Shown here: piece after piece, positions 9,518 through 41,985 of the stretch | How positions within the stretch are numbered: position 1 is the stretch's first letter | Layout of the letters: every line of letters starts with the position of its first letter | DNA from: Oscillospiraceae bacterium | Lineage (GTDB): Bacteria; Bacillota; Clostridia; Oscillospirales; UBA929 | Assembly (NCBI GenBank): GCA_009777255.1 | Contig: WRMG01000005.1 | Span: 1 to 55,765, forward strand | DNA: 55,765 nucleotides | Reading direction: 5' to 3' | Position numbers and translations under genes: made by a program | The notes under the pieces: generated by a model | What the model was told of the DNA's origin: nothing | Database searches by the model: none | Seen by the model: only the letters and a program-made list of their open reading frames with translations

Positions 9518-9773
9518 ATGGATACGTTTCAGGGGATGACGCGGGAGCGTCTTTGCGAAATATTGGAGGGCATCAAAAATGTCCGCGCCGCCGTTTTCGG
9601 CGATTTATGTGTTGACATTTACTGGCACGCCGATATGCGCAGAGCTGTCCCGCGAAACGCCGCATTTCGCTATGCCGGTGGTGGAGGAACGCGTATCACT
9701 GGGCGGCGGCGGGAATGTGGCGGCCAATATGGCGGCGCTCTTAGATAACGCGCCGCGTTATCTATATAGTTAG
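9518..9773 (+). pseudogene. PfkB-family sugar kinase remnant, frameshifted and truncated
   Basis: The first frame encodes an N-terminal stretch ending VFGDLCVDIYWHADM, typical of RfaE1-like PfkB kinases. Conserved sequence then continues in the next frame as ELSRETPHFAMPVVEER and GGGGNVAANMAAL, so there is a frameshift near 9635-9645. Homology stops after about 75 residues at 9741, where the palindrome TAGATAACGCG-C-CGCGTTATCTA begins; the substrate and ATP-binding C-terminal two thirds are missing. A good ribosome site (ACGGAGG) remains before the ATG. The gene therefore appears to be a recent relic. An assembly error would not easily explain both the shift and the truncation. Confidence 0.8.
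9742..9764. repeat. Perfect 11-bp inverted repeat at the kinase truncation point
   Basis: TAGATAACGCG (9742-9752) and CGCGTTATCTA (9754-9764) are perfectly complementary around one central base. The right arm contains the stop codon of the ADP-ribosylglycohydrolase gene. No T-run suited to a terminator follows on either strand. It could be a deletion scar, a recombination site or a remnant of a palindromic element. Confidence 0.7.
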
Positions 9774-11027
9774 GCTGACTGTTTTTTTCACCAATTCATC
9801 AACTGACACTGTTTCATATCCTTCGACGGATGTTTTAAGGCGGTAATGGAACGCCTCCGGCCAGTATGAATCAATCTTACCGGCTCCCAGCATTATGCCC
9901 ATAACCGACCCGGCGGTCGCGCCGTTGCAGTCGGTATCAAACGCCGCCTGAACGGCGAGGCAGATGGTTTTTCCGAAATCCTTTTCGCCGTACAGCAAAG
10001 CCATTACCACCACCATTGCGTTGGGGTTGGTATAGCACCAGCCCGTGGGCGTATGCTCGTCATATGTCCGGTGTATCTTCTCAATGGCCGCGTCGGCGGA
10101 ACAGCCGTCCTTATGCCACGACAGTACCTGATTGATGTCGCGCCGGAGCCTGCAATTACGGGGTATTTCGTCCAGCGCTTTTTCAACGGCGTCCCTAATA
10201 TCGCCGCAGACCGCCGCCGCCGCGATCAACGCGGATATGAACATTTCGCCGTAGATCCCGTTTTTGATATGGGAGACCGAAGCGTCGCGCCATGCCATTT
10301 CCGCCGCCGCCCGCGGGTTGCCTATGTTGATATACCCGAAGAAATCGCCGCGGATCTGCGCGCCGATCCATTCCCTGTACGGGTTTTTAACAGTTGCGGT
10401 ATGCGCAAGTCCGTTCGCGGCGTTTCTGTACGCGACGCGTTCGGCGGTGCAGGTTTGCAGATAGGGTATCCATTTGAGCCATGCCTCCAGCACATCATCG
10501 GGTGTAAAATCCCGTCCGTATACCTCGAGCAGCTTCAGGGCTAAAACGGTATAGTTTGTGTCGTCGTCCACGGGGGCGCCGCCTTTTACCAGCTTGTCAT
10601 TGAAATCCCCGATGTATTTATGCAGGGGGAAATTATCCGTCTCCCTGAGAAGCCGCCACAGCGCGTCGCTTTTATACCCCTCAACGGGTTTCCCGAGCAG
10701 ACAGCCCGCGATACGCCCTATCCACGCCCCCGTAAGTTTGTCCTCAAGCTCCGCGCCCTTTGGAATACCGGAATATTTGCCGGCCGAGGCCGGTTTTTCT
10801 TTTTGGATGCCTTCGTAATCCGACGGCTCGACGAACGTAAAATCCTCCCGTAAAGGCGCGCTCTTCAACATTCCCTCGGCCCGCTCCGCCATTTCCTCGT
10901 TGTTGTGCTTTGCGATCTCGGAGCATAGTTCTTTAAGATTTTCCACATCGCGCCCCTCGAGATGGCTCTGCTCCCATTCCAAAAGCATATCCGGCGCTAA
11001 ATGTATCCACAGCTGTGACTCGGGCAT
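9762..11027 (-). CDS. ADP-ribosylglycohydrolase (DraG/ARH) family protein
   Basis: The 421-residue protein carries the ARH fold from about residue 90: LTGAWIGRIAGCLLGKPVEG, metal-binding DDDTNYTVLA, and the C-terminal DTDCNGATAGSVMG that completes the dinuclear Mg site. Family members remove ADP-ribose from proteins or split related N- or O-glycosides. An extra N-terminal segment of about 85 residues is acidic and unassigned. The start has GGGAGG upstream. It ends at the decayed PfkB kinase and lies 44 bases downstream of the metal ATPase gene, so it may be read from that transcript. The substrate is unknown. Confidence 0.85.
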   Translation of the reverse strand: MPESQLWIHLAPDMLLEWEQSHLEGRDVENLKELCSEIAKHNNEEMAERAEGMLKSAPLREDFTFVEPSDYEGIQKEKPASAGKYSGIPKGAELEDKLTGAWIGRIAGCLLGKPVEGYKSDALWRLLRETDNFPLHKYIGDFNDKLVKGGAPVDDDTNYTVLALKLLEVYGRDFTPDDVLEAWLKWIPYLQTCTAERVAYRNAANGLAHTATVKNPYREWIGAQIRGDFFGYINIGNPRAAAEMAWRDASVSHIKNGIYGEMFISALIAAAAVCGDIRDAVEKALDEIPRNCRLRRDINQVLSWHKDGCSADAAIEKIHRTYDEHTPTGWCYTNPNAMVVVMALLYGEKDFGKTICLAVQAAFDTDCNGATAGSVMGIMLGAGKIDSYWPEAFHYRLKTSVEGYETVSVDELVKKTVSLTI

Positions 11028-12823: not shown

Positions 12824-12835
12824 ATTTATCTCCTC

Positions 12836-13111
12836 CTATACTATTCGTGAGAACTGCTCGATAGCCGACGACAGCTTTTTTATGGTATCCTCGCCGTTTC
12901 CTTCGCGGATGCCGTCCAGCACGCAGTGATGAAGATGCCCCTCTAAAATGACCTGCCCCGTTTTGTGCAGCGCGGATTTCGCCGAGCCGATTTGGATAAG
13001 TATTTCGTCACAGCTTTTATCCTCCTCGACCATTCTTATCAGGCCGCGCATCTGCCCTTCTATACGTTTCAGCCGGTTCATAACAGCTTCGGCGTTCGTA
13101 TATTTATTCAT
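12836..13111 (-). CDS. CsoR/FrmR-family metal-sensing repressor
   Basis: The 91-residue all-helical protein of the DUF156 family has a Cys34, His59, Cys63 set (SCDEIL and HLHHC). The spacing matches the copper-binding Cys-His-Cys of CsoR. These tetramers bind G-rich operators and release DNA when metal binds. It is the first gene of a two-gene unit with the P1B ATPase and probably represses its own promoter. The ATG is preceded by GGGAGG. Copper is the likely effector, but FrmR or RcnR-like sensing of other ligands cannot be excluded from these residues alone. Confidence 0.88.
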   Translation of the reverse strand: MNKYTNAEAVMNRLKRIEGQMRGLIRMVEEDKSCDEILIQIGSAKSALHKTGQVILEGHLHHCVLDGIREGNGEDTIKKLSSAIEQFSRIV

Positions 13112-13217: not shown

Positions 13218-13246
13218 TTGACTTTTTTAATATAATGTTATATAAT
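13218..13246 (+). promoter_or_regulatory. Sigma-A promoter of the glutamine superoperon
   Basis: TTGACT (13218-13223) and a perfect TATAAT (13241-13246) are 17 bases apart. Transcription should start near 13253, just before the attenuator hairpins and about 65 bases before the first gene. It is divergent from the csoR promoter. Confidence 0.75.
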
Positions 13247-13254
13247 ATTTTTGT

Positions 13255-13290
13255 TGGACAAAGGCGTTCATCTTTTTGGTGGGCGCTTTT
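13255..13290 (+). promoter_or_regulatory. Attenuator: AAAGGC hexaloop hairpin versus terminator
   Basis: Hairpin 1 is TGGAC-AAAGGC-GTTCA (13255-13270): a 5-bp stem with one G-U pair and a six-base loop that has A at position 1 and G at position 4. Hairpin 2 is AAAGGCGTTCATC (13260-13272), loop TTTTT, GGTGGGCGCTTTT (13278-13290): a 13-bp stem with several G-U pairs ending in a T-run, i.e. an intrinsic terminator. The two share 13260-13270 and cannot coexist. The same layout and loop occur before the amt gene. ANTAR proteins bind hexaloops with A1/G4 and prevent terminator folding; here that is inferred. Confidence 0.65.
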
Positions 13291-13315: not shown

Positions 13316-14416
13316 ATGCTGCGAGAGGGTCAAATCAGGATACCGTCCGGCTGCGCCATATCGGGAATCATCAATAAATCCGGAAAACGCGTGGGCGGCG
13401 AGGCCATTATAAAGTCGATAGCCGTCATGCATGACCGCTCGAACGGATTGGGCGGCGGGTTCGCCGCATACGGGATTTATCCCGAATATAAAGACTACTA
13501 CGCTTTACATGTTTTCTACGACTCGGCGGCCTCGAAAAAGGAATGCGAGGATTTTCTCGAGAGGCATTTTGATATTATCAATCTCTCGAAGATACCGACA
13601 AGGAAGATAAAGGAGATTACGGACGAGCCGCTTATCTGGCGTTATTTTGTCACGCCGCTGCCCACCAAGCTGGCGGACAGCCAGCTTGACGAACGCGAAT
13701 TCATGGCTAAGTGCGTATTCAGGGTAAACACAAAAATCGCCGGCGCCTACGTGTTTTCCAGCGGCAAGAATATGGGAGTTTTCAAAGCGGTCGGGTTCCC
13801 CGAGGATGTGGGCAGATTTTACCGGCTGGAGGATTACGAGGGCTGGTGCTTCACGGCGCACGGGCGTTATCCTACCAACACGCCGGGCTGGTGGGGCGGC
13901 GCGCATCCGTTCGCGCTGCTCGATTATTCCGTGGTGCATAACGGTGAAATATCGTCCTATGACGCAAACAGGCGCGCTATCGAAATTTACGGATATAAAT
14001 GCACGCTGCAAACCGACACAGAGGTTATAACATATATAATAGATTTTCTGCACAGAAAAAAAGGGCTTACGTTTAAGGAAATCGCGTCCGTTATCGCCGC
14101 GCCGTTCTGGCAGACCATCGAGCGCATGGCGCCGGAGGAGAGAGAGCTGCATGAGTATCTGCGGATCGTGTTCGCGGAACAGCTTATAACCGGCCCGTTT
14201 TCCATTCTCGTCGGGTTCGAGGGCGGGCTTATGGCGTTAAACGACAGGCTGAAGCTGAGGAGCATGGTGGTCGGCGAAAAGGGCGACACCGTATATATAG
14301 CGAGCGAGGAAGCCGCTATCAGAATAATCGAGCCGGATTTGGATTCGGCATGGGCGCCCAAGGGCGGCCAGCCTGTGATCGTATGCCTGGACGGAGGTGA
14401 AGCGGAGTGCCGGTGA
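13316..14416 (+). CDS. Glutamate synthase glutaminase subunit (archaeal-type, class II GATase)
   Basis: The 366-residue protein is a class II glutamine amidotransferase domain equal to domain 1 of GltB. It should release ammonia from glutamine for glutamate synthesis. The likely nucleophile is Cys13 in PSGCAISG, so about 12 N-terminal residues would have to be removed. GWCFTAHGRYPTNT and VVHNGEISSY match the glutamine site. The start is the ATG at 13316 with AGGAGG eight bases upstream; the longer track ORF (from 12965) runs through the csoR gene and the promoter. It overlaps the FMN-domain gene by 10 bases. First gene of the superoperon. Confidence 0.88.
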   Translation: MLREGQIRIPSGCAISGIINKSGKRVGGEAIIKSIAVMHDRSNGLGGGFAAYGIYPEYKDYYALHVFYDSAASKKECEDFLERHFDIINLSKIPTRKIKEITDEPLIWRYFVTPLPTKLADSQLDEREFMAKCVFRVNTKIAGAYVFSSGKNMGVFKAVGFPEDVGRFYRLEDYEGWCFTAHGRYPTNTPGWWGGAHPFALLDYSVVHNGEISSYDANRRAIEIYGYKCTLQTDTEVITYIIDFLHRKKGLTFKEIASVIAAPFWQTIERMAPEERELHEYLRIVFAEQLITGPFSILVGFEGGLMALNDRLKLRSMVVGEKGDTVYIASEEAAIRIIEPDLDSAWAPKGGQPVIVCLDGGEAECR

Positions 14417-15912
14417 ATTTTATATATCCCGATTATGAGGTAACGCGAAACTCCGACAGATGTATCGCCTGCCGCGCCTGTGAGCGCCAATGCGCCAACG
14501 GGGCGCATGAATATCTCCCCGACGCGAACAGGGTGGTCTGCGACGACGCAAAATGCGTGAACTGCCACCGCTGCGTTTCTCTCTGCCCCACCCGCGCGCT
14601 GAAAATCGTAAAAAGCGGCAATACATACAGAGAGAATATGAACTGGAGCGGCAAGACTATAAACGAACTGTACCGGCAGGCGGGCAGCGGCGGCGTACTG
14701 CTGTCAAGCATGGGCAACCCCGAGGAATATCCTGTATATTTTGACAAGCTGCTGTTAAACGCCTCGCAGGTCACAAACCCGTCGATAGACCCGCTGCGCG
14801 AGCCTATGGAAACAAAGGTGTTCCTTGGCGCGAAGCCCCGGCAAATTGAGCGCGGCAAGGACGGGCGGATAATAAACAATCTGCCGCCGCAGCTTAATCT
14901 GTCTATGCCGGTGATGTTCTCGGCCATGAGCTACGGCTCACTGAGCTACAACGCGCACGAAAGCCTTGCGCGCGCCGCGGAGGAGCTGGGCATCCTTTAC
15001 AATACCGGCGAAGGCGGGCTGCACGAGGACTTTTATAAATACGGTAAAAACACCGTCGTACAGGTCGCGTCGGGACGTTTCGGCGTCCATCCCGAATACC
15101 TGAACAGCGGCGCGGGCGTCGAAATTAAAATGGGGCAGGGCGGCAAGCCCGGAATCGGCGGCCATCTGCCGGGGACGAAAATCATCGGCGACGTTTCGCG
15201 CACCCGAATGATTCCCGAGGGCAGCGACGCTATCTCGCCCGCACCCCACCACGACATTTACTCAATCGAGGATCTGCGGCAGCTTGTTTTTTCGCTCAAA
15301 GAGGCGACGCGCTACACAAAGCCGGTCATCGTTAAGATCGCCGCCGTCCATAACGTATCGGCCATAGCCAGCGGCATTGCCAGAAGCGGAGCCGATATAA
15401 TCGCCATCGACGGCTTCCGCGGCGGCACGGGCGCCGCTCCCACGCGTATGCGCGACCATGTGGGTATCCCTATCGAGCTTGCTCTGGCCGGAGTTGACAA
15501 GAGGCTGAGGGACGAGGGCATCCGCGATAACGTATCCATAATAGCCGGCGGCAGCATCCGTTCCAGCGCCGACATAGTAAAGGCCGTCGCTTTGGGCGCG
15601 GACTGCGTGTATATCGGCACGGCGGCGCTGCTGGCGCTCGGCTGCCACTTATGCAGAAGCTGTCACGGCGGCAGGTGCAACTGGGGTATCGCCACACAGG
15701 CGCCGGAGCTTGTAAAGCGGCTTAACCCCGAGATCGGCTATAAGCGTCTTGTCAATCTGCTGACAGCCTGGCGGCATGAGATAAAGGAGATGATGGGCGG
15801 CATGGGGATAAACTCAATCGAGAGCCTGAAAGGCAACCGGCTTATGCTCCGCGGCGTGGGGCTGAACGAAAAGGAGCTTGAAATACTGGGCGTAAAACAC
15901 GCGGGGGAATAA
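14407..15912 (+). CDS. gltB: Glutamate synthase FMN-domain subunit with N-terminal ferredoxin domain
   Basis: The 501-residue product starts with two 4Fe-4S motifs (CIACRACERQC and CVNCHRCVSLC, about residues 18-55). The FMN-binding glutamate synthase barrel follows: FSAMSYGSLS, NTGEGGLHED, IKMGQGGKPGIGG, DGFRGGTGAAPT and a cysteine cluster, CHLCRSCHGGRCNWG, for a 3Fe-4S centre. It converts 2-oxoglutarate and ammonia to glutamate. The start is GTG inside the previous gene. The glutaminase and GXGXG parts are separate genes in this cluster, as in archaeal-type enzymes. It should use electrons from the ferredoxin and FAD subunits encoded downstream. Confidence 0.93.
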   Translation: MPVNFIYPDYEVTRNSDRCIACRACERQCANGAHEYLPDANRVVCDDAKCVNCHRCVSLCPTRALKIVKSGNTYRENMNWSGKTINELYRQAGSGGVLLSSMGNPEEYPVYFDKLLLNASQVTNPSIDPLREPMETKVFLGAKPRQIERGKDGRIINNLPPQLNLSMPVMFSAMSYGSLSYNAHESLARAAEELGILYNTGEGGLHEDFYKYGKNTVVQVASGRFGVHPEYLNSGAGVEIKMGQGGKPGIGGHLPGTKIIGDVSRTRMIPEGSDAISPAPHHDIYSIEDLRQLVFSLKEATRYTKPVIVKIAAVHNVSAIASGIARSGADIIAIDGFRGGTGAAPTRMRDHVGIPIELALAGVDKRLRDEGIRDNVSIIAGGSIRSSADIVKAVALGADCVYIGTAALLALGCHLCRSCHGGRCNWGIATQAPELVKRLNPEIGYKRLVNLLTAWRHEIKEMMGGMGINSIESLKGNRLMLRGVGLNEKELEILGVKHAGE

Positions 15913-20295: not shown

Positions 20296-21012
20296 ATGGA
20301 TATATCGGCGCTTAAACTGGATTTCAAAGCGCTCAACGAACAGATCAACGCCGAGGACGGCGACGTCCGTATCAGCGATTGCTGCGGGCATAGGTTCATC
20401 GGCTGCGGCGCCAAGGGAAAGACAATCACAATAAACGGCACGCCGGGCAACGCTCTGGGCGCTTATATGGACGGCGCGGTCATCGAGGTTAACGGCAACG
20501 CTCAGGACGCCGTCGGCGACACGATGAACGACGGGGAAATTATAATCCGCGGCAGCGCGGGCGACGCGCTCGGTTACGCCATGCGCGGCGGAAGCATCTA
20601 TGTAAAAAACGACGCCGGTTACAGAACCGGCATACATATGAAGGAGTACAGGGATAAAAAGCCCGTGATCGTGATAGGCGGCAAAGCTGGCAGCTTTTTG
20701 GGAGAGTATCTGGCCGGCGGAATTATTATCGTACTCGGCATCGGCGCGGAGGACGTACCTGTCGGAAACTTTACGGGAACCGGTATGCACGGCGGGCGTA
20801 TCTTTGTCAGAACGGAAAACGAGCTTGAGAATCTGCCCGCGCAGGTGACGATAACGGTTGCCGATGAGGATGAAAAAATGGGGATCAAGGGGTATATCTC
20901 CCGCTTCGCCGGACTTTTCGGGGCTGACATCGATGCGCTCATGCGGGATAAATTCTATGTTCTCAAACCAAACGCGAAAAATCCATACAAGCAGCTGTAC
21001 ACCGTAAATTAA
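20296..21012 (+). CDS. Glutamate synthase GXGXG-domain subunit
   Basis: The 238-residue product is the C-terminal beta-helix domain of GltB made as a separate protein. It has the repeated Gly-rich rungs GTPGNALGAYMDG, GNAQDAVGDTMNDG and GSAGDALGYAMRGG, ending in a GTGMHGGRIF segment. In full-length enzymes this domain sits between the glutaminase and FMN sites and holds the ammonia path. It begins one base after the FAD subunit gene, completing the five-gene glutamate synthase set interrupted by purB and purA. Confidence 0.9.
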   Translation: MDISALKLDFKALNEQINAEDGDVRISDCCGHRFIGCGAKGKTITINGTPGNALGAYMDGAVIEVNGNAQDAVGDTMNDGEIIIRGSAGDALGYAMRGGSIYVKNDAGYRTGIHMKEYRDKKPVIVIGGKAGSFLGEYLAGGIIIVLGIGAEDVPVGNFTGTGMHGGRIFVRTENELENLPAQVTITVADEDEKMGIKGYISRFAGLFGADIDALMRDKFYVLKPNAKNPYKQLYTVN

Positions 21013-22854: not shown

Positions 22855-24171
22855 ATGAACGCCACCGCGGGCGAGGTATTGGAATTTGTAAAGGAGAACG
22901 ACGTTAAGTTTATCCGGCTCGGGTTTTGCGACCTGTTCGGGCTTCAAAAGAATATTTCCATCCCGTCGGACGATTTGGAATCCGCGTTTGAGGACGGGGT
23001 GTACTTTGACGCCCACTCTATCCGCGGCTTCCGTGACGTGACCGAGTCCGATCTGCTGCTGTTCCCCGATCCCGCGACGCTTACGGTTCTGCCGTGGCGC
23101 CCGGGACCGGGCAGGGTCGCGCGTTTTTACTGCGACATCAAAACGCCGGACAGGCGCGCGTTTATACTTGACAGCAGGTATATACTAAGGCTTGTAGTCA
23201 AGCGGTGCGCCGATATGGGCTTTGTTTGCAGAATCGGCGCTGACTGCGAGTTTTATCTGTTCAGGGCCGGCGAGGACGGCGAGCCGACGCGCGCAACCCT
23301 TGACAGGGGCGGTTATCTGGATATTTCGCCGTTGGACAGGGGCGAGGATATACGCAGGGAGATATGCCTGACTCTGGATGAAATGGGGCTGAAGCCCGAG
23401 CTTTCGCGCCATGAGAAGGGCCCCGGGCAGAACGAGATCGACTTTAAGTTCTCCGACGCGCTCTCCTGCGCCGACAACCTCCTGACCTTCAAGTCGGTCG
23501 TCAAGGCGATCGCCGCGCGCAACGGGCTGTTCGCGTCGTTTATGCCCAAGCCCATACCAAACGCGCCCGGCAGCGGGCTGCACTTAAACATCTCGCTTGC
23601 GAAAAACGGGCGCAATGTTTTTAAGAGCGACGGCGAACATTCGGCGGCGGCGGAGAGCTTTATCGCGGGGATACTTCAAAGAACGCCTGAAATATCACTG
23701 TTTCTCAATCCCATCGCCAATTCATACGAGCGCTTCGGCGCTTATGAGGCGCCGAAATATGTGTCATGGTCGCATCAGAACCGCTCGCAGCTTATACGGA
23801 TCCCCGCGGCGACCGGCGAAAAGGTCAGGATGGAGCTGCGTTCGCCCGACCCGTCTGTTAACCCCTATCTCGCGTTCGCGCTGATACTCGCGGCTGGGCT
23901 TGAGGGGATCGAAAAGGGCCGGCCCCTGCCGCCCGCCGTTGACGCGGACCTATACACCGCGGACGAAAGCGTGACCAAAACACTTGCGCCGCTGCCGGAC
24001 AGCCTCGATACGTCGATCAGGCTTGCGGAAAACAGCGAGTTTGTCAAAGGAGTTACCGGCAAAGAGCTGCTTGGCAAATACCTTGCGATCAAAAAAGCCG
24101 AAGCCGCTGATTACGACGCCTCCGCAGACAAGGCGGCGTTTTGTGAGGAACGCTATTTCAGCAGTATATAG
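22855..24171 (+). CDS. glnA: Glutamine synthetase, type I
   Basis: The 438-residue protein has the GSI order: N-terminal beta-grasp with LGFCDLFGLQKNISIP, metal-binding ADCEFYLF, NEIDFKFSDAL, FMPKPIPNAPGSGLHLN, and the C-terminal LRSPDPSVNPYLAFAL. It ligates ammonia to glutamate with ATP. Its length matches the GSI-alpha group common in Firmicutes. It is preceded by glmS (11-base gap, AGGAGG site) and followed by the ANTAR regulator gene. A second, type III, glutamine synthetase lies 16 kb downstream. Feedback regulation cannot be judged from sequence alone. Confidence 0.94.
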   Translation: MNATAGEVLEFVKENDVKFIRLGFCDLFGLQKNISIPSDDLESAFEDGVYFDAHSIRGFRDVTESDLLLFPDPATLTVLPWRPGPGRVARFYCDIKTPDRRAFILDSRYILRLVVKRCADMGFVCRIGADCEFYLFRAGEDGEPTRATLDRGGYLDISPLDRGEDIRREICLTLDEMGLKPELSRHEKGPGQNEIDFKFSDALSCADNLLTFKSVVKAIAARNGLFASFMPKPIPNAPGSGLHLNISLAKNGRNVFKSDGEHSAAAESFIAGILQRTPEISLFLNPIANSYERFGAYEAPKYVSWSHQNRSQLIRIPAATGEKVRMELRSPDPSVNPYLAFALILAAGLEGIEKGRPLPPAVDADLYTADESVTKTLAPLPDSLDTSIRLAENSEFVKGVTGKELLGKYLAIKKAEAADYDASADKAAFCEERYFSSI

Positions 24172-24201: not shown

Positions 24202-24774
24202 GTGATGGACAGCGTTCTAATCGTTTCCTGTTCCGGTAAAGGGACGGACTTCTTCTCCGAGCTGCTGAACTCGGCCGGCTTTCATCATATCGCCGTAACG
24301 CAATCCTGCGGCGAGGCGCGAAGGCTTTTACTCACCCGCGATTACGACCTGGTTGTCGTTAACGCCCCGCTGCGGGACGAATCGGGAGAAAATCTCTCGC
24401 GGCAGATAGCGTCCAGAGGAATTTCGCAAGCTATGCTGGTGGTAAAGAGCGAGCATTTCGAGGCGGTTTCCGCGGTTTGCGAGGACGACGGCGTTCTGAC
24501 GGTCGCCAAACCGGTAAACAGGGCGGTTTTCTGGTCCGCTTTGAAGCTGGCCGGGGCGTCGCAAAACAGACTGAGGCGCGTACAGGCCGAAAACGCGAAG
24601 CTGAAGCAGAAAATCGAGGATATACGGGTCGTTGACCGGGCTAAATGCCTTTTAATATCGCACATGAGCATGAGCGAAAACGACGCGCACAGGTTTATCG
24701 AGAAACAGGCGATGGACATGCGCTTGGGTAAAAAGGAAATAGCGGAAAGGATATTGAAAACATATGAAGCGTGA
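24202..24774 (+). CDS. ANTAR-domain antiterminator with degenerate receiver
   Basis: The 190-residue protein has an N-terminal receiver-like domain (about 1-118), a coiled-coil linker rich in Lys/Glu (about 125-145) and a C-terminal ANTAR domain (about 140-190; LLISHMSMSENDAHRFIEKQ, then AMDMRLGKKEIAERIL). ANTAR domains bind RNA hexaloop hairpins and block terminators. The receiver lacks the usual phospho-acceptor: LVVVNAPLRD has Asn54 where Asp is expected, and the acidic pair after strand 1 is also lost (VLIVSCSG). It should not be phosphorylated in the usual way. A GTG (24202) or ATG (24205) start is possible; AGGAGG favours the ATG. Its place after glnA points to nitrogen control. Confidence 0.9.
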   Translation: MMDSVLIVSCSGKGTDFFSELLNSAGFHHIAVTQSCGEARRLLLTRDYDLVVVNAPLRDESGENLSRQIASRGISQAMLVVKSEHFEAVSAVCEDDGVLTVAKPVNRAVFWSALKLAGASQNRLRRVQAENAKLKQKIEDIRVVDRAKCLLISHMSMSENDAHRFIEKQAMDMRLGKKEIAERILKTYEA

Positions 24775-24822: not shown

Positions 24823-25890
24823 ATGACGGCGTATCTGCTTTTAGAGGACGGCACTGTCTTTGAGGGGAGTTCTTTCGGCGCGCAGGGCAGCGTTACGGGA
24901 GAAATTGTATTCTCCACCGGCATGACCGGCTATTTGGAAACGCTGACCGATCCCAGCTATTACGGGCAAATCATTCTTCAAACCTTTCCGCTTATCGGCA
25001 ACTACGGCGTTATCCCCTCCGATTTCGAGAGCGGCGCCGTCGCGGCAAAAGCCTATATCGTAAAGCATCCGTGCCAAAACCCCTCCAACTTCCGAAGCGA
25101 GGGGGCTCTTGAGTCTTTCCTGAAGGAACGCGGCGTCGTCGGGCTTTACGGGATAGATACGCGCGCGCTTACTAAGCTAATACGCGAAAACGGCGTTATG
25201 AACGGGAAGATAACGCTCTCCCCGCCGACCGAAGCCGACCGCGCCGAAGTGCGGGCCCACCGTATCGGCGGCGCCGTCGCCGCGGTATCGTCAAAGCTCC
25301 CGTCCCCGCCGCTCAAGGGTTCGGACGCGGCGGCGCGCCGCCGCGTGGCGCTGATGGATTTCGGCGCGAAACGCGGCATCGCCGAGGCTCTGACTGCGCG
25401 CGGCTGCGAGGTGTGGGTGTTCCCGCACGACACCCCGGCTGGAGAGATCACGAAGATAAATCCCAGCGGCATTGTGCTTTCAAACGGGCCCGGCGACCCC
25501 GCAGACCCCGCGAATAACGGGATAGTCGAAACTCTCCGCGAGCTGAACCGGACCGGTATACCGATTTTCGGCATCTGCCTGGGGCATCAGCTTTTGGCGC
25601 TGGCAAACGGATATAAAACCAAAAAGCTCAAATTCGGACACAGGGGCGCCAACCAGCCTGTCAGGGACACGCGGACGGGACGCGTATATATCACCAGCCA
25701 AAACCACGGCTACACGGTCATCGCGGATAACGGCTCGTTCGTCAACGTTAACGACGGCACCTGCGAGGGTATGGATTACGGCGTGTCGTTTTCCGTGCAG
25801 TTTCATCCCGAGGCCCGGGGCGGGCCGCTCGACACGGCGTTTTTGTTTGAAATCTTTATGGAGAGGATGAACGCGTATGCCGCTGAATAA
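24823..25890 (+). CDS. carA: Carbamoyl-phosphate synthase small subunit
   Basis: The 355-residue subunit has an N-terminal CPSase_sm domain (MTAYLLLEDGTVFEG, then GMTGYLETLTDPSYYGQI) and a C-terminal class I glutaminase with FGICLGHQLLAL (nucleophile Cys), NHGYTV and FHPEA. It splits glutamine and passes ammonia to CarB for carbamoyl phosphate, used in pyrimidine and arginine synthesis. It overlaps carB by 14 bases. The length is slightly below average but all catalytic motifs are present. Confidence 0.95.
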   Translation: MTAYLLLEDGTVFEGSSFGAQGSVTGEIVFSTGMTGYLETLTDPSYYGQIILQTFPLIGNYGVIPSDFESGAVAAKAYIVKHPCQNPSNFRSEGALESFLKERGVVGLYGIDTRALTKLIRENGVMNGKITLSPPTEADRAEVRAHRIGGAVAAVSSKLPSPPLKGSDAAARRRVALMDFGAKRGIAEALTARGCEVWVFPHDTPAGEITKINPSGIVLSNGPGDPADPANNGIVETLRELNRTGIPIFGICLGHQLLALANGYKTKKLKFGHRGANQPVRDTRTGRVYITSQNHGYTVIADNGSFVNVNDGTCEGMDYGVSFSVQFHPEARGGPLDTAFLFEIFMERMNAYAAE

Positions 25891-28800
25891 GAACATCAAA
25901 AAAACTTTGGTCATCGGCTCCGGCCCGATCGTTATAGGGCAGGCGGCGGAGTTTGATTACGCGGGTACGCAGGCGTGCCGCGTTCTCCGTGAGGATAATA
26001 TCGAGATCGTGCTTGTCAACTCCAACCCCGCCACAATAATGACTGACGAAAACATCGCGGATAAAATATATATCGAGCCTCTGACACTGACGACGATCAA
26101 ACGCATAATCGAAAAAGAGCGCCCCGACAGTATCCTGTCCGGACTGGGAGGCCAGACGGGGCTGACGCGCTGTATGCAGCTTGCCAAAGAGGGCTTTTTA
26201 GAGAAAATGGGCGTACAGCTGCTGGGTTCCTCGCCGGCGACCATTGACAGAGCTGAGGACCGGCAGCTCTTTAAGGAAACCATGCTCGCCGCCGGACAGC
26301 CCTGCGTCCCGTCGGCAATAGCCACCGACGTCGGGGCTGCGGTCGAATTCGCGGAGAGTATCGGTTATCCGGTAATAGTGCGTCCGGCGTTCACCTTGGG
26401 CGGCGCCGGAGGCGGTATCGCCGGCGACGAGGCAAAGCTGCGCGAGATCGCGGCCGGCGGCATAAAGCTGTCGCCTATCAATCAGATACTCATCGAAAAA
26501 TCTATCGCCGGCTGGAAAGAGATCGAGTTTGAGGTGATGCGCGACGGCGCGGACAACGTGATAACCGTCTGCTCCATGGAAAATTTCGATCCGGTAGGCG
26601 TGCATACCGGCGACAGCATTGTCATAGCGCCCGCCGTCACGCTGGCCGACAAGGAATATCAAATGCTCAGGAAAGCGTCCTTGGATATAATCCGGGCGCT
26701 CGGCGTCGAGGGCGGCTGCAACGTCCAGCTCGCGCTGCACCCGCACAGCTTTGAATACGCCGTTATAGAGGTCAACCCGCGCGTGTCGCGCTCCTCGGCA
26801 CTGGCCAGCAAGGCTACGGGTTATCCGATCGCTAAAGTGGCTACTAAAATCGCCATCGGCTACACCCTGGACGAGATCACCAACGCCGTTACGGGAACCA
26901 CCTTCGCCGCCTTTGAACCGGCGCTTGACTATGTGGCGGTCAAATTCCCCAAGTGGCCGTTCGACAAATTCGTCTACGCCAACAGGGATCTGGGCACTCA
27001 AATGAAGGCGACCGGCGAGGTCATGGCGATAGCCGACACGTTTGAGGCGGCGCTGCTCAAAGCGGTGCGCGGCGCGGAGCTGGGGCTTGACAGCCTTGAC
27101 CTTCCCCGTCTGATGAGCAAAAGCGACGCCGAAATACGCGCGCTTCTTGATAACGTGACCGATGAGCGGCTGTTCGTGCTGTATGAGGCCGTCAAACGCG
27201 GCGTAAGCATTGACGAGCTTTATGATATAACAAAGGTTGACCGCTGGTTCCTGCACGGGCTTGCTAATATAGCAAAAGACAATCTGCCGTCCAAGCAGCT
27301 CGTATATAAGATGGTTGACACCTGCGGCGGCGAGTTCGAGGCGAAAACCCCCTACTTTTACTCCATACAAAACGGGACGGAGGACGAAGCCCTGCCGTTT
27401 ATCAAAAAAAGCGAAAAAAGCCGTATAGTCGTGCTGGGCAGCGGGCCGATCCGTATCGGCCAGGGTATTGAGTTCGACTACGCCTGCGTGCATTGCGTGT
27501 GGACGCTGAGGGAGCTTGGGTATGAGGTAATCGTCATAAATAACAACCCCGAAACGGTGTCAACGGATTTCGACACCGCCGACAGGCTGTACTTCGAGCC
27601 GCTGCATATCGGCGATGTGATGAGCGTTATAGAGAACGAAAAACCCATAGGCGTTATAGTGGCCTTCGGCGGCGGCACGGCGATCAAGCTGACGAAAACG
27701 CTGCGCGAGCGCGGCGTGAATATCATCGGCACCCCCGCGGACAGCATAGACATCTGCGAGGACAGGGGGCGTTTCGACGATTTGCTGGAACAGCTCCATA
27801 TCAAACGCCCCAAGGGTTACGGCGTGCTGACGGAAGCGGAGGCGCTCGGCGCCGCCGACAGGCTCGGCTATCCCGTGCTCATGCGCCCGTCTTACGTGCT
27901 GGGCGGACAGAATATGATTATCGCGTTCTCCGAAGCGGACATACGCGAGTATATGGAAATAATCCTGCGGCAGAAACAGGAAAACCCCGTGCTGATCGAC
28001 AAGTATCTGGAGGGCATGGAGATCGAGGTTGACGCTATCTGCGACGGCAGGGATGTCCTGATTCCCGGCGTAATGGAGCATATCGAGCGCACCGGCGTCC
28101 ACTCGGGCGACAGTATCGCCGTATATCCGGCTATAAATATCGACGACAATCTGACCGGAAAGATTTTTGACGTGACGCGAAAGCTCTGTATGGCGCTGAA
28201 TGTCAAAGGGCTGGTCAACATCCAGTACGTCCTGTATGAAAACGAACTGTATGTGATCGAGGTCAACCCCCGCGCGTCGCGTACCGTGCCGTATATCAGC
28301 AAGGTCACCGGCGTCTCCATGTGCGAGCTGGCCACAAGGATAAGCGTCGGCGAAACGCTGGAGGAGCTGGGATACACGTCAGGTGTAGCGCGCATACCGC
28401 CGTATACGGCGGTCAAGGTGCCGGTATTCTCTTTTGAAAAGCTGGTCGGTCTGGATACCCATTTAGGGCCCGAGATGAAATCCACGGGAGAGGTTCTGGG
28501 GCTCGGAAAAAACATCGAAGAGGCGCTTTACAAGGGGCTTGTCGCCGCGGGCTATACCATGCGCAAGAGCGGCGGGGTCCTCATTACTGTGCGCGACGGC
28601 GATAAAGCGGAAATCGCGGACGTCGCTAAAAAATTCGTCCGGCGCGGGTTTTCATTGTACGCGACCCGAGGCACCGCACGGTTTTTGGAGGGGAAGGGGT
28701 TCTCGGTCCAAACCGTGGAGAAAATCCATGACTGCGCCTTAAACAACACCGAAACGATGATGGAGAGCGGAAACATCAGCTATGTCGTCTGCACATCTGA

Positions 28801-29815
28801 GAAAGGAAGAGATCCCGCGCTGGACGATGTGCAGCTGCGCAGGAAAGCGTGCGCGCTGGGTATCCCGTGCCTCACGTCCATCGACACGGCAAACGCGCTG
28901 GCGGACAGCCTGCTCTCAGGCTACAGCGAAATCAACACGGAGCTTGTTGACATAAACGATCTGAGGGCTGAGCGCATGAAGCTGGAGTTTACCAAAATGC
29001 AGACCTGCGGCAACGACTATATCTACATCAACTGCTTTGACCTTGAGATAAACTCGCCGGAGTCGCTGTCGGTACTGCTGTCAGACCGGCATTACGGCGT
29101 CGGCGGCGACGGCGTCGTCCTGATCCTCCGTTCGGATATTGCCGACGCCAGGATGAGGATGTTCAATCTCGACGGCAGCGAGGGTAAAATGTGCGGCAAC
29201 GCCATCCGCTGCGTCGCCAAATACCTGTATGACAACCGTATGGTCACGAAAACGCGGATGAGCATAGACACGCTGAGCGGAATAAAAATAATGGATGTGA
29301 CCACAAAAAACGGGCTTGTCTTATCCGTCAAGGTCGATATGGGGCGCGCCGTGCTAAGGCCGGACGATATACCCGTCAGGCTCTCCGGCGAGAGCGTCGT
29401 GGCAAGGCCGGTAACCGTCGGCGGCGCGGAATATAAAATCACATGCGTTTCAATGGGCAATCCTCACGCGGTGGTATTCTGCGACAACGTTGAAAATTTC
29501 GCCGTCAACGATATAGGGCCGCTGTTTGAGTATGACGGGCTGTTCCCCGACAGGACAAACGCGGAATTTGTCGAGGTAATGGGCAGGAACCATTTGAAGA
29601 TGCGCGTCTGGGAGCGCGGCAGCGGAGAGACGCTCGCCTGCGGGACGGGCGCCTGCGCGGCGGCGGTCGCCGCCGTCCTGAACGGATACTGCGGCAAGGG
29701 CGCGGATATAAAGGTACAGGTGGCCGGCGGCGAGCTTATCGTAAACTATACCGACGAAGCGGTTATAATGATCGGCGACTGCAAAAAAGTATACGACGGG
29801 ATGGTGGAGATATGA
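25877..29815 (+). CDS. carB: CarB-DapF in-frame fused ORF
   Basis: This single open frame of 1312 codons encodes a full CarB (residues 1-1033) followed without linker by a full diaminopimelate epimerase (1034-1312). The CarB part has two ATP-grasp halves, each opening GSGPIVIGQ or GSGPIRIGQ, and a C-terminal MGS-like domain ending VDINDLRAER. It makes carbamoyl phosphate with CarA. There is no stop before the DapF methionine at 28976. Such a fusion is unusual because the two enzymes share no pathway. Either both are made as one chain, or DapF also starts at its own internal ATG. A single-base error near 28940-28975 is a third possibility, since TGA at 28962 lies in the +1 frame. Confidence 0.9.
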   Translation: MPLNKNIKKTLVIGSGPIVIGQAAEFDYAGTQACRVLREDNIEIVLVNSNPATIMTDENIADKIYIEPLTLTTIKRIIEKERPDSILSGLGGQTGLTRCMQLAKEGFLEKMGVQLLGSSPATIDRAEDRQLFKETMLAAGQPCVPSAIATDVGAAVEFAESIGYPVIVRPAFTLGGAGGGIAGDEAKLREIAAGGIKLSPINQILIEKSIAGWKEIEFEVMRDGADNVITVCSMENFDPVGVHTGDSIVIAPAVTLADKEYQMLRKASLDIIRALGVEGGCNVQLALHPHSFEYAVIEVNPRVSRSSALASKATGYPIAKVATKIAIGYTLDEITNAVTGTTFAAFEPALDYVAVKFPKWPFDKFVYANRDLGTQMKATGEVMAIADTFEAALLKAVRGAELGLDSLDLPRLMSKSDAEIRALLDNVTDERLFVLYEAVKRGVSIDELYDITKVDRWFLHGLANIAKDNLPSKQLVYKMVDTCGGEFEAKTPYFYSIQNGTEDEALPFIKKSEKSRIVVLGSGPIRIGQGIEFDYACVHCVWTLRELGYEVIVINNNPETVSTDFDTADRLYFEPLHIGDVMSVIENEKPIGVIVAFGGGTAIKLTKTLRERGVNIIGTPADSIDICEDRGRFDDLLEQLHIKRPKGYGVLTEAEALGAADRLGYPVLMRPSYVLGGQNMIIAFSEADIREYMEIILRQKQENPVLIDKYLEGMEIEVDAICDGRDVLIPGVMEHIERTGVHSGDSIAVYPAINIDDNLTGKIFDVTRKLCMALNVKGLVNIQYVLYENELYVIEVNPRASRTVPYISKVTGVSMCELATRISVGETLEELGYTSGVARIPPYTAVKVPVFSFEKLVGLDTHLGPEMKSTGEVLGLGKNIEEALYKGLVAAGYTMRKSGGVLITVRDGDKAEIADVAKKFVRRGFSLYATRGTARFLEGKGFSVQTVEKIHDCALNNTETMMESGNISYVVCTSEKGRDPALDDVQLRRKACALGIPCLTSIDTANALADSLLSGYSEINTELVDINDLRAERMKLEFTKMQTCGNDYIYINCFDLEINSPESLSVLLSDRHYGVGGDGVVLILRSDIADARMRMFNLDGSEGKMCGNAIRCVAKYLYDNRMVTKTRMSIDTLSGIKIMDVTTKNGLVLSVKVDMGRAVLRPDDIPVRLSGESVVARPVTVGGAEYKITCVSMGNPHAVVFCDNVENFAVNDIGPLFEYDGLFPDRTNAEFVEVMGRNHLKMRVWERGSGETLACGTGACAAAVAAVLNGYCGKGADIKVQVAGGELIVNYTDEAVIMIGDCKKVYDGMVEI
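28976..29815 (+). CDS. dapF: Diaminopimelate epimerase (domain of the fused ORF, possible internal start)
   Basis: From the internal ATG the 279-residue sequence is a complete DapF: start MKLEFTKMQTCGNDYIYIN, catalytic Cys73 in GKMCGNAIR and Cys222 in ETLACGTGACAAA. It interconverts LL- and meso-diaminopimelate for lysine and peptidoglycan. A ribosome-site-like GAGGG (28963-28967) sits 8 bases before the ATG, so separate translation is plausible even though the frame is continuous with carB. The stop overlaps the guaA ATG (ATGA). Both catalytic cysteines are intact. Confidence 0.8.
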   Translation: MKLEFTKMQTCGNDYIYINCFDLEINSPESLSVLLSDRHYGVGGDGVVLILRSDIADARMRMFNLDGSEGKMCGNAIRCVAKYLYDNRMVTKTRMSIDTLSGIKIMDVTTKNGLVLSVKVDMGRAVLRPDDIPVRLSGESVVARPVTVGGAEYKITCVSMGNPHAVVFCDNVENFAVNDIGPLFEYDGLFPDRTNAEFVEVMGRNHLKMRVWERGSGETLACGTGACAAAVAAVLNGYCGKGADIKVQVAGGELIVNYTDEAVIMIGDCKKVYDGMVEI

Positions 29816-37951: not shown

Positions 37952-37980
37952 TTGACAAACGCAAAAACATATGCTATCAT
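37952..37980 (+). promoter_or_regulatory. Sigma-A promoter of the amt-glnN unit
   Basis: A perfect TTGACA (37952-37957) and TATCAT (37975-37980) are 17 bases apart. The start would be near 37987, a few bases before the hexaloop hairpin. It lies between aspS and the leader terminator, so that terminator belongs to the amt leader and is not only the end of the superoperon. Confidence 0.75.
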
Positions 37981-37991
37981 ATCTATTGTAA

Positions 37992-38033
37992 ACGGCAAAG
38001 GCGCTGTGGATAAAACTGTCCACAGCGTTTTTT
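37992..38033 (+). promoter_or_regulatory. Attenuator: AAAGGC hexaloop hairpin versus intrinsic terminator
   Basis: Hairpin 1 is ACGGC-AAAGGC-GCTGT (37992-38007), a 5-bp stem with one G-U pair around the same hexaloop as in the superoperon leader. Hairpin 2 is AAAGGCGCTGTGGA (37997-38010), loop TAAAACTG, TCCACAGCGTTTTT, a 14-bp stem (9 perfect inner pairs) followed by a T-run: a strong intrinsic terminator. The loop of hairpin 1 forms the base of hairpin 2, so only one can fold. Binding of the ANTAR protein to hairpin 1 is inferred. Confidence 0.7.
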
Positions 38034-38055
38034 ATTTGTTATATTGCGTACAACG

Positions 38056-38100
38056 GCGTGCGGTTCCCCGTCCGGTAAGGGCGGAGGGGCGCGCGCTTTT
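38056..38100 (+). terminator. Second GC-rich hairpin with T-run in the amt leader
   Basis: GCGTGC...GCGCGC (one G-U pair) encloses CCCC-TCCG / CGGA-GGGG with a bulged G and a seven-base loop, then TTTTGTT. It looks like a second terminator or a stable structure ahead of the ribosome site, 40 bases before the amt ATG. Its role is unclear. Confidence 0.5.
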
Positions 38101-38139: not shown

Positions 38140-39849
38140 ATGGATTTTGGCATTTGGTTTTTACTCGCGGCTGCGATGGTGTTCTTCATGCAGGCGGGTT
38201 TCGCAATGGTGGAGTCGGGCTTTACCCGCGCGAAAAACGCCGCGAATATTATCATGAAGAACCTGATGGATTTCTGTATCGGCACGGTATTCTTCGTCCT
38301 GATCGGTTTCGCTATCATGTGCGCAGAGGATTACCTGTTCGGCTTTATCGGCGTCCCTAACCTCGGCATCTTCACCGATTTTGCCGGCTTTGATTTCTCG
38401 GGCTTTGTATTCAACCTCGTGTTCTGCGCCACGGCGGCGACGATAGTGTCGGGCGCCATGGCGGAACGCACCAAGTTCAGCTCTTACCTGATCTACAGCG
38501 CGGCGATCAGCGCGGTCATATACCCGATAGAGGCCGGCTGGGTCTGGAACGAAAACGGCTGGCTGGCGCAGCTGGGCTATATCGACTTCGCGGGCTCGTC
38601 GGCGATCCATATGGTGGGCGGTATCTCCGCTTTCATCGGCGCGGCTTTCCTCGGCCCCCGCCTCGGCAAGTATTCCACAGACCCGAAAACCGGCAAGAAA
38701 ACCGCCCGCGCTATCCCCGGCCATTCGCTCACACTGGGCGCGCTCGGCTGCTTTATCCTGTGGTTCGGCTGGTACGGCTTCAACGGCGCGGCGGCCGAGA
38801 ACCTGTCGCAGCTGGGCTCCATATTCCTGACCACAACGGTCGCGGCGGCGGCGGCGGCGCTGTCCACAATGACCTTTACATGGATGAAAAACGGCAAGCC
38901 AGACGTGTCGATGACCCTTAACGGCTCGCTGGCCGGTTTGGTCGGCATAACGGCCGGATGCTCGAACGTGGACGCGCTGGGCGCGCTTATCATCGGCGCG
39001 GTGGCCGGCGTCATCGTCGTCGCGGCGATTGAGTTCATCGACCTCAAGCTGCATGTGGACGACCCCGTCGGCGCGGTCGCCGTACACGGAGCCTGCGGCA
39101 TATGGGGCACACTGGCCGTCGGGCTGTTCGCCAAGCCCATAACGGCGGGCGGCGACGTTATCTCCGACGCGTCGGGGCTGTTCTACGGCGGCGGAGCGGC
39201 GCTGCTGGGCGTTCAGGCGCTGGGCGTGCTTTCCATCGCCGGCTGGACGATCGTGACGATCTCGACAGTTTTCTTTCTTATCAAAAAGCTGCACGGGCTG
39301 AGAGCCTCCGCCGAAGACGAGATCACTGGGCTTGACTTTACGGAGCATGGGTTGCAGAGCAGCTACGCCGACTTCCTGCCTGTACAAACCCCCGATTTAC
39401 AAGTACTCGGCGGCGGCACGGCGGCGGTATCGGCCGTTCCCGTAAGCGCGGCGGTCCCCGTGTCCGACACATCTACCGGAAAGAAAATCACCAAAGTCAC
39501 GATAATCGCAAAGCACAGCAGATTCGACACGCTCAGGAAAGTGTTCGACGAGGTAGGCATCACAGGCATAACCGTCACGAACGTTATGGGCTACGGCATA
39601 CAGCGCGGGCATACGCATACATACCGCGGCGTGCCGCTCGAATCCCCGCTGATCCCCAAAATCCAGATCGACGTCGTTATCAGCAAGGTGCCCGTCAAAA
39701 CGCTGGTTGACGCGGTAAGGAAGAATCTGTATACTGGGAATATCGGCGACGGAAAGATATTCGTCTATGATGTTGAAAACGTCATTAAGGTTCGTACCGG
39801 CGAGGAGGGCTACGACGCGCTTCAGGACGCCGCCCCCGGCGACGAGTAG
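38140..39849 (+). CDS. amt: Ammonium transporter fused to a C-terminal P-II domain
   Basis: The 569-residue product has an Amt/Rh channel (about 1-420): MQAGFAMVESGFTRAKNAANI, the pore segment GWVWNENGWLA, AIHMVGG and VHGACGIWG with the pore histidines. After a Ser/Val/Pro-rich linker (about 430-455) comes a complete P-II (GlnK) domain (about 458-569): KKITKVTIIAKHSRFDTLR, a T-loop with GHTHTYRG and the nucleotide loop GNIGDGKIFVYDVENVIKVRTGEEG. The T-loop lacks the Tyr51 that is uridylylated in enteric P-II. It should import ammonium with a built-in 2-oxoglutarate/ATP sensor. The start at 38140 has GAGGAGAAAGG upstream; 45 bases separate it from glnN. Confidence 0.92.
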   Translation: MDFGIWFLLAAAMVFFMQAGFAMVESGFTRAKNAANIIMKNLMDFCIGTVFFVLIGFAIMCAEDYLFGFIGVPNLGIFTDFAGFDFSGFVFNLVFCATAATIVSGAMAERTKFSSYLIYSAAISAVIYPIEAGWVWNENGWLAQLGYIDFAGSSAIHMVGGISAFIGAAFLGPRLGKYSTDPKTGKKTARAIPGHSLTLGALGCFILWFGWYGFNGAAAENLSQLGSIFLTTTVAAAAAALSTMTFTWMKNGKPDVSMTLNGSLAGLVGITAGCSNVDALGALIIGAVAGVIVVAAIEFIDLKLHVDDPVGAVAVHGACGIWGTLAVGLFAKPITAGGDVISDASGLFYGGGAALLGVQALGVLSIAGWTIVTISTVFFLIKKLHGLRASAEDEITGLDFTEHGLQSSYADFLPVQTPDLQVLGGGTAAVSAVPVSAAVPVSDTSTGKKITKVTIIAKHSRFDTLRKVFDEVGITGITVTNVMGYGIQRGHTHTYRGVPLESPLIPKIQIDVVISKVPVKTLVDAVRKNLYTGNIGDGKIFVYDVENVIKVRTGEEGYDALQDAAPGDE

Positions 39850-39894
39850 CCGGCGCAAACCCCCTCACAAAATCTATATATAAAGGTGATTGAA

Positions 39895-41985
39895 ATGAAA
39901 AATATTCCCGAACTGTTCGGAAGCATGGTGTTCAGCGACGAGGTCATGCGGGAAAAGCTGCCCAAGGATATTTACCGCGCGCTGAAGAAAACAATGTCAC
40001 AGGGCACTCATCTGGAGCTTGACGTGGCCAACGTTGTCGCCAGCGCTATGAAGGATTGGGCGTCGGCAAAGGGCGCGACCCATTTCACCCATTGGTTCCA
40101 GCCTATGACCGGCACAACCGCCGAAAAGCACGACAGCTTTATCGAGCCTGACGGCGGCGGCGGCGCCATAATGGCGTTCTCGGGCAAAGCGCTTATCAAG
40201 GGCGAGCCCGACGCGTCCAGCTTCCCGTCCGGCGGCCTGCGCGCCACGTTTGAGGCGAGAGGCTATACCGTCTGGGACACGACCTCATACGCGTTTATCA
40301 AGGACGATATATTATGTATCCCGACCGCGTTCTGCTCCTACAGCGGCGAGGCGCTGGACAAAAAGACGCCCCTGCTCCGCTCTATGCAGGCCGTGGACAA
40401 ACAGGCGCTGCGCATACTCCGGCTGTTCGGCAACACCGCGGCGCAGCGCGTCGTGGCGCTGGTCGGGCCGGAGCAGGAATACTTTCTCATCGACAAGGAA
40501 ATTTTCCTGAAACGCCCGGATCTGGTGTACACCGGAAGGACGCTGTTCGGTGCGCGCCCGCCAAAGGGCCAGGAGCTTGAGGATCACTATTTCGGCAGCC
40601 TGAAGCCAAGGGTGTCCGCGTTTATGAAAGAGCTTGACGAGGAGCTGTGGAAGCTGGGCGTTTACGCCAAAACCAGACATAACGAGGTCGCCCCCGCCCA
40701 GCACGAGCTTGCCCCGATCTACGCGACGACCAATATCGCCACTGACCACAACCAGCTCGCCATGGAGATTATGAAAACTGTCGCCGACCGTCACGGACTC
40801 GCCTGCCTGCTCCACGAAAAGCCTTTCGCCGGCGTCAACGGCAGCGGCAAGCATAACAACTGGTCCATAGCCGCCGACACAGGCGTCAACCTGCTGGAAC
40901 CCGGCAAAACGCCGCATGAAAACGCGCAGTTCCTGCTGTTCCTCACAGCCGTCATAAAAGCGGTGGACCAATATCAGGATTTGCTCAGGATCTCGGCGGC
41001 AAGCGCCGGCAACGACCACAGGCTGGGCGCGAACGAAGCGCCTCCGGCGATAATATCCATGTTCCTCGGCGAGGAGCTTACTGAGATTCTGGAAACGCTT
41101 GAAGCCGGCGCCGATTACAAGGGTAAGGAAAGAAACCAGATGGAGATCGGCGTGACGGTGCTGCCGCATTTTTCAAAGGACACCACCGACCGCAACCGCA
41201 CCTCGCCTTTCGCGTTCACGGGCAACAAGTTTGAGTTCCGTATGCTGGGTTCGTCATTCTCCGTCGCGGAGCCTAACATCGTGCTGAACACGGTTGTCGC
41301 CGACATCCTCAGCCAAATCGCGGACCGGCTGGAAAAATCGGACAATTTCAACGCCGACCTGGCCGGCCTGATCAAAGACACCTTCAGGGCCCACAAGCGT
41401 ATCATCTTCAACGGCAACAACTACGCCGACGAATGGGTAACGGAGGCCAAAAAGCGCGGCCTGTCAAATCTCAGAACCTCCGTGGACGCGCTGCCCGAGT
41501 TTATTTCCCCGAAAAGCATAGAGCTGTTCTCAAGGCACGGCGTGTTCACCGAATCGGAGCTTCGTTCGCGTTACGAGATATTTATGGAGAGCTATTGCAA
41601 AACACTCCATATCGAGGCGCTCACCATGGTAGACATGGTCAAAAACGGGATAATCCCCGCCTGTATCGGCTATCAGAACGAGATCGCGGAGCTGCTGAGC
41701 CTGAAAAAATCCTGCGGCGCATACGACGCTTCTCTCGAGGACCATCTGCTCGGCTCCGTGTCAAAGCTGTCGTCCTGCCTGCTCGGCAAACTGACGGCGC
41801 TTGAAAACACCCTTCTCGAGTCCAAGGCTGACGCGGACATCCTCACACACGCGGTGTTTTACCGCGACAGGGTAATAAACGCCATGTCGGAGCTGCGCCT
41901 GATCGTAGACGAGCTTGAAACCTTCGTCGCAAAAAAATACTGGCCGCTGCCGTCATACGCGGATATGCTGTTCAGCGTGATATAG
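39895..41985 (+). CDS. glnN: Glutamine synthetase, type III
   Basis: The 696-residue protein is far longer than GSI and has the GSIII order: N-terminal [59 protein letters not shown]-like [52 protein letters not shown] and a helical C terminus. It makes glutamine from ammonium. It lies directly after amt, so import and capture of ammonium are made together. The ATG at 39895, six bases after AAGGTG, is preferred over the GTG at 39886. It is followed by a strong terminator. Confidence 0.95.

Follow-up and report, generated by a model that had tools for sequence, protein, structure and literature searches.

How does an ANTAR protein receive its signal when its receiver domain has lost the site at which a kinase would act? 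The question is raised by an open reading frame at 24202-24774 (+ strand) of a 55,765-nucleotide contig of an Oscillospiraceae bacterium (WRMG01000005.1, assembly GCA_009777255.1; this whole stretch is called the window), which encodes a predicted NitR-like antiterminator of 190 amino acids when read from GTG 24202. The start-codon context is GAGGAGGCGAT-GTG-ATG-GAC, and because the N-terminus of the relatives is Met, ATG 24205 may be the true start, in which case the phospho-site residue discussed below becomes residue 53. The protein consists of a receiver (approximately residues 4-110), a long coiled-coil helix and an ANTAR domain (residues 132-185). The latter reaches 52.6 bits against Pfam ANTAR (curated cut-off 27.3), and Response_reg reaches 29.5 bits, slightly below its cut-off of 30.2. 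A sequence-only reading of the locus had claimed that Asn54 replaces the phospho-acceptor Asp and that the acidic pair after strand 1 is lost, and both claims hold: strand 3 is DLVVVNAPLRDESG, which puts Asn54 (AAC codon) at the phospho-site, and strand 1 is VLIVSCSG (S9/C10), so the receiver has no acidic pair. The strand-5 Lys is retained (K103-P104), and alignment to CheY places Lys82 at the position of the strand-4 Thr, where 61 of 80 relatives carry Lys or Arg. The same reading had proposed a structure prediction of the receiver. The resulting AF2 model (62 family members, mean pLDDT 94) predicts a complete receiver fold and a helix at residues 107-155 that leads into the ANTAR bundle. 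Receiver fold and Asn54 together identify an aspartate-less receiver (ALR); the marks of an EutV-type phosphorylated response regulator, Asp with the acidic pair and a kinase nearby, are both missing. Over the whole chain the best structural match is RNA-bound EutV (6ww6, TM 0.74), followed by free EutV (0.65) and by Rv1626 and AmiR (about 0.59), and Rv1626 is the nearest known structure by sequence. AF2 often yields extended, active-like conformers, so the likeness to RNA-bound EutV carries little information on regulation.

The missing Asp is not peculiar to this protein; Asn at the phospho-site is an ordinary trait of its family. Named genomes encode relatives in no fewer than 578 stretches, and among the 80 sequences that were aligned site 54 is Asn in 64, Asp in 11, Ser in two, Tyr in two and Ile in one, which leaves 69 without Asp. 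The acidic pair is intact in none of the 80, and position 9 is never acidic, the Asp54 proteins included. Asn predominates on the tree, where at least 4-7 separate changes are needed to explain Asp; the Clostridium relatives L079, L089 and L125 fall inside the family. While position 54 drifts, P56, L57, D59, E60, G62, R40-R41 and K103-P104 are nearly fixed. A glutamine synthetase (GS) gene also adjoins five ANTAR genes of the order that are more divergent; the receiver alignment is readable for four of them, and all four lack Asp. Judged from these alignments, ordinary Asp phosphorylation of the receiver is unlikely across the whole family, and the family-wide loss of the phospho-site supports the non-kinase input proposed by the sequence-only reading. 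Two other accounts of the substitution were rejected: a decayed pseudogene, because the reading frame is intact and conservation is high, and a chance change at site 54, because Asn is found family-wide. Close NitR relatives also occur in metagenome-assembled genomes (MAGs) assigned to Fibrobacterota, Synergistota, Spirochaetota and Elusimicrobiota (L066, L067, L078, L080, L081, L086, L094 and L103). Many of the NitR-bearing MAGs assigned outside Clostridia apparently share gut metagenomes with Oscillospiraceae relatives, which may reflect gene transfer or binning error.

The surroundings of the gene point to nitrogen assimilation, and no kinase gene was found there. None of the 30 window ORFs scanned has a histidine kinase domain, and the remaining large ORFs (purA, glmS, carA, carB, guaA, pyrG and others) are biosynthetic enzymes, named by eye, in agreement with the earlier statement that no histidine kinase gene is nearby. 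The type I GS gene glnA (22855-24171, +) ends 30 nt upstream of the regulator gene, carA lies directly 3' of it, and glnA is directly upstream in 68 of the 74 named loci that have enough upstream DNA. As expected of a NitR-family member, the gene adjoins glnA within a GS/GOGAT cluster. This cluster begins with the N-terminal (GATase) gene of gltB (13316-14416, +; the ORF call from 12965 is over-extended) and includes the glutamate synthase central/FMN domain gene (14407-15912, +) and a GltB C-terminal (beta-helix) domain protein (20296-21012, +), assigned from its sequence and from its place within the cluster, which is conserved. From 13316 to 37891 there is a long run of same-strand genes with tiny gaps, whose products make or consume glutamine or feed purine and pyrimidine synthesis: gltB pieces, purB, purA, ferredoxin, oxidoreductase, glmS, glnA, the nitR-like gene, carA, carB, guaA, pyrG, gatA, gatB and a tRNA synthetase. 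This run, glnA and the nitR-like gene included, is possibly one operon behind the leader at 13.25 kb. Within it, the 1312-aa carB ORF (25877-29815) continues in frame into an apparent diaminopimelate epimerase (DapF) domain; either carB and dapF are fused or a stop is missing. Further downstream, an Amt-P-II fusion gene (38140-39849, +; ATG 38140 read from the sequence) is followed after a 36-nt gap by glnN, encoding type III GS (39886-41985, +), in an amt-PII operon. A small CsoR-like metal-sensor gene (12824-13111, -; by eye) separates the glutamate synthase leader from a P-type ATPase gene; the ORF call from 12965, which extends too far, masks it. An ADP-ribosylglycohydrolase family gene (9762-11027, -) is close to the nitrogen cluster; DraG-like proteins take part in nitrogen control elsewhere.

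The sequence-only reading was silent on target RNAs, and two candidates lie in the same window. In both, a promoter is followed, a few nucleotides past the predicted start, by a 5-bp hairpin with an AAAGGC hexaloop and then by a terminator. Upstream of the glutamate synthase operon, a sigma-70-like promoter (13218-13246, +; TTGACT-17-TATAAT, consensus match only) precedes a predicted antiterminator hairpin with a single A1/G4 hexaloop, TGGAC[AAAGGC]GTTCA (13255-13270, +), which has comparative support, and an overlapping intrinsic terminator (13260-13290, +; 13 pairs, -16.5 kcal/mol). The amt leader has an extended -10 promoter (37952-37980, +; TTGACA-17-TATCAT, consensus match only), the predicted single A1/G4 hairpin ACGGC[AAAGGC]GCTGT (37992-38007, +), also with comparative support, and an overlapping intrinsic terminator (37997-38032, +; 16 pairs, -22.8 kcal/mol); a weaker, possible second element in tandem, CGTAC[AACGGC]GTGCG with its terminator, spans 38047-38097 (+). 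The 5' arm of the terminator starts with the hexaloop in both leaders, making hairpin and terminator mutually exclusive. Such an A1/G4 hexaloop overlapping a terminator is a feature of published ANTAR target RNAs. The terminators (-22.8 kcal/mol for amt, -16.5 for gltB) are stronger than the hairpins (-5.8 and -3.6 kcal/mol), which fits a hairpin that has to be held by a protein. Across the bacterium's own genome (assembly 64% complete) there are 15 matches to the core pattern, and only the two in the window overlap a terminator. The bare 12-nt pattern is no commoner there than a reversed control, so the overlap is the only discriminating feature in this genome. A search of Rfam at the gathering threshold gave no hit to any family in the window; in four relatives it returned tRNAs and nothing else.

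The leaders recur in relatives. In 1.2 Mb comprising the window and related loci we counted 156 hexaloop/terminator elements with A1/G4 loops, against 30-75 (mean about 50) for each of 15 other loop classes. They lie before amt (28), glnN (28), gltB (20) and glnA (4), and the same leader also precedes asnB (L064, L085, L097, L101, L110), gdhA (L075, L076, L077, L084), asnA (L096, L120), carA, purC (L084, L086) and purB. The genes behind these leaders all specify enzymes with ammonium or glutamine as a substrate, or members of those pathways. We examined the stem in 67 leaders chosen by terminator and hexaloop letters, pairing not being required. Positions 1-5 pair in 94, 91, 94, 85 and 70% of them, compared with 90, 68, 68, 42 and 41% after shuffling, and pairing falls to only 36-40% at positions 6-7; related sequences somewhat inflate these counts. 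Because the 5' flank lies outside the terminator stem, terminator structure does not account for the pairing, and in these alignments the predicted hairpin stem covaries across relatives. The element is also tied to the regulator: none of 13 glnN leaders from ANTAR-free genomes has it, against 22 of the 38 others, all from ANTAR-bearing genomes (p 2e-4), so that only about 58% of glnN leaders in the latter group pass the element filter. The glnN leaders of two ANTAR-free genomes (L173 in G027 and L175 in G040) have an element-like terminator with an unpaired 5' flank; these may have been left behind when the regulator was lost, or the genomes may be incomplete.

Published ANTAR targets are defined by two hexaloop hairpins (PMC3369931, PMC8164766), and whether antitermination needs one or two is unsettled (PMC3369931, PMC8934654): crystallography has been used to argue for one hexaloop as the binding unit, yet EutV still requires both in vivo (PMC8934654). 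The leaders described here do not have the second one. A strict two-hairpin search of the window found no dual motif in any assimilation leader and a single intergenic pair at 9546-9567 (+), and we therefore adopted a single-hexaloop reading. Among the 67 leaders a second A1/G4 hexaloop is not enriched, either downstream (2) or upstream (5), both at control level, and the hairpin starts so near the promoter that there is no space for one upstream. Whole elements stand in tandem in a few leaders (L059 1195-1400, L047 1257-1360, and L044, with 2-3 per amt gene). The leaders resemble a natural single-hexaloop system present in many genomes, in which the one-versus-two question is directly testable.

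We consider it likely that this is an antiterminator of the NitR type that serves nitrogen assimilation and acts on single-hexaloop leaders, its receiver having changed from a phospho-switch into an input domain that works independently of a kinase. Sequence comparison supports this through the family-wide loss of the phospho-site, the paired and covarying hairpin, the terminator overlap and the dependence of the leaders on ANTAR. That the protein binds RNA, forms a dimer and acts in the direction given below is inferred, as is the signal that it receives. When nitrogen is short, a NitR-type dimer would bind the leader at its 5' end, on the hairpin with the lone A1/G4 hexaloop. As the hairpin takes up the first nucleotides of the terminator, the bound form would block termination and let RNA polymerase read into gltB-...-glnA-nitR and amt-PII-glnN. 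Positive feedback would result, because the nitR-like gene lies in the first operon.

For the source of the signal we surveyed 57 genomes of the order. The sequence-only reading had suggested protein contact, with GS or with the P-II domain of the Amt fusion. Amt and P-II are present in 27 of these genomes, all with an ANTAR gene, and never without one, which counts in favour of a P-II input. Nine ANTAR-bearing genomes, several of them 95-100% complete, nevertheless have no P-II, and four of the nine keep leaders at gltB or glnN. On these grounds P-II was rejected as a general input, a role that we regard as very improbable; ANTAR and leaders persist without P-II and never the reverse, so P-II is better read as a target. 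GS fares better. By analogy with Bacillus, where GS acts on the DNA-binding regulator TnrA (PMC6316151), feedback-inhibited, glutamine-bound GS might hold the receiver and block antitermination, an option that we rate as plausible but short of an even chance. Besides the adjacency seen in 68 of 74 loci, the co-occurrence of ANTAR with type I GS (GlnA), usually adjacent, speaks for it: 33 of 36 versus 2 of 21 genomes (p 4e-10). Yet the six named loci without an adjacent glnA, and G008 and G010 alike, all belong to genomes without a recognisable type I GS, and leaders are still present in some GlnA-less cases (L085, L091, L110). Contact with GlnA is thus not obligatory: GS is a plausible partner, but its type I form is dispensable. 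Type III GS (GSIII), encoded by each of the 31 NitR-bearing genomes in the set of relatives, could replace it and would need to do so, yet G051 has no GSIII. Nor are the conserved receiver residues relaxed in GlnA-less lineages; compared with GlnA-bearing ones they are unchanged and reveal no candidate contact patch. A mirror-tree comparison of NitR and GlnA against glutamate synthase controls gave no excess correlation.

The persistence of NitR without P-II and without GlnA would also fit a small metabolite, such as glutamine or 2-oxoglutarate, that binds the receiver in or near the former phosphorylation pocket. The near-fixed residues around a drifting position 54 favour such a ligand, although they may merely stabilise the fold, and we hold direct binding to be possible, if somewhat doubtful. 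That same conservation, with its fixed motif, suggests a working input and so counts against a protein that receives no signal at all and is always active, with the regulon controlled by how much of it autoregulation and other promoters supply. A leader on its own operon and a model extended as in active EutV agree with constant activity, but positive feedback alone provides no off switch, and this alternative appears unlikely. Still less credit, and the least of all, goes to unusual phosphorylation, either on Asp59, which is near-invariant, or in lineages that reverted to Asp54 (11 of 80), since the acidic pair is absent even beside Asp54 and no kinase domain was found among the 30 window ORFs scanned. 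Taken together, glutamine status is the most likely signal, and P-II and phosphorylation are unlikely ones. It may be read via GS, usually GlnA, and GSIII where GlnA is missing, although this falls below an even chance; reading via a metabolite bound directly to the receiver is a lesser possibility. Our full proposal is a tentative one: a non-phosphorylatable receiver that reads nitrogen status itself or via whichever GS is available, without kinase or P-II, and a single 5' hexaloop whose binding releases terminators, so that enzymes using ammonium or glutamine would be controlled together, as one regulon, in Clostridia and further gut phyla. The leaders would supply NitR-type proteins with a concrete regulon, and the nitrogen signal of these anaerobes is narrowed, with P-II and phosphorylation largely excluded.

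Neither an ANTAR protein without the aspartate (AmiR) nor an ANTAR antiterminator linked to glnA (NitR) is new to the literature. AmiR of Pseudomonas aeruginosa is the classic aspartate-less ANTAR protein and shares with the present one the ANTAR output, a pseudo-receiver without phospho-Asp and non-kinase regulation. In contrast, AmiR is restrained by AmiC, an amide sensor whose gene lies next to that of AmiR, and no such gene is adjacent here: the neighbours are glnA and carA, and the only candidate in the window is PnrA-like and 25 kb away (49644). Sequence and fold matches to AmiR are also weaker than those to Rv1626 and EutV. RitR of Streptococcus pneumoniae, itself an ALR, likewise has Asn at the phospho-site, but its target is DNA and triad position 1 is still acidic in it, whereas both acidic positions are gone here. 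Aspartate-less receivers are reported to be enriched with ANTAR outputs (PMC4395418). Rv1626 of Mycobacterium tuberculosis, the best sequence match of known structure, has the same receiver-ANTAR architecture but retains the acidic pair and the Asp. EutV of Enterococcus faecalis resembles the protein in fold, extended helix, A1/G4 hexaloop and antiterminator-terminator overlap, and in most RNA-contact residues: K143, K147, K149, E160 and Y164 (PMC8934654) correspond to R142, R146, K148, E159 and H163, and contact R142 to Ile141. Unlike our protein, EutV is a substrate of EutW, which phosphorylates its Asp54, and its leaders have two hexaloops each. NitR of Clostridium saccharobutylicum, a glnA-linked ANTAR antiterminator that induces GS/GOGAT genes on nitrogen limitation (PMC6316151), is alike as an ANTAR protein of the glnA/GOGAT cluster with inferred GS/GOGAT control under nitrogen limitation, and in C. 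thermocellum the ANTAR gene of the GS-GOGAT cluster falls together with the expression of the cluster (PMC4676874). The predicted targets and the single-hexaloop regulon of NitR-type proteins appear to be new, although primary NitR papers (e.g. Stutz 2007) may already describe leaders of this kind. The likeness to NitR is drawn from gene context and the published description, and what this work adds, for the relatives of NitR, is independence from P-II and a broad predicted regulon with single hexaloops.
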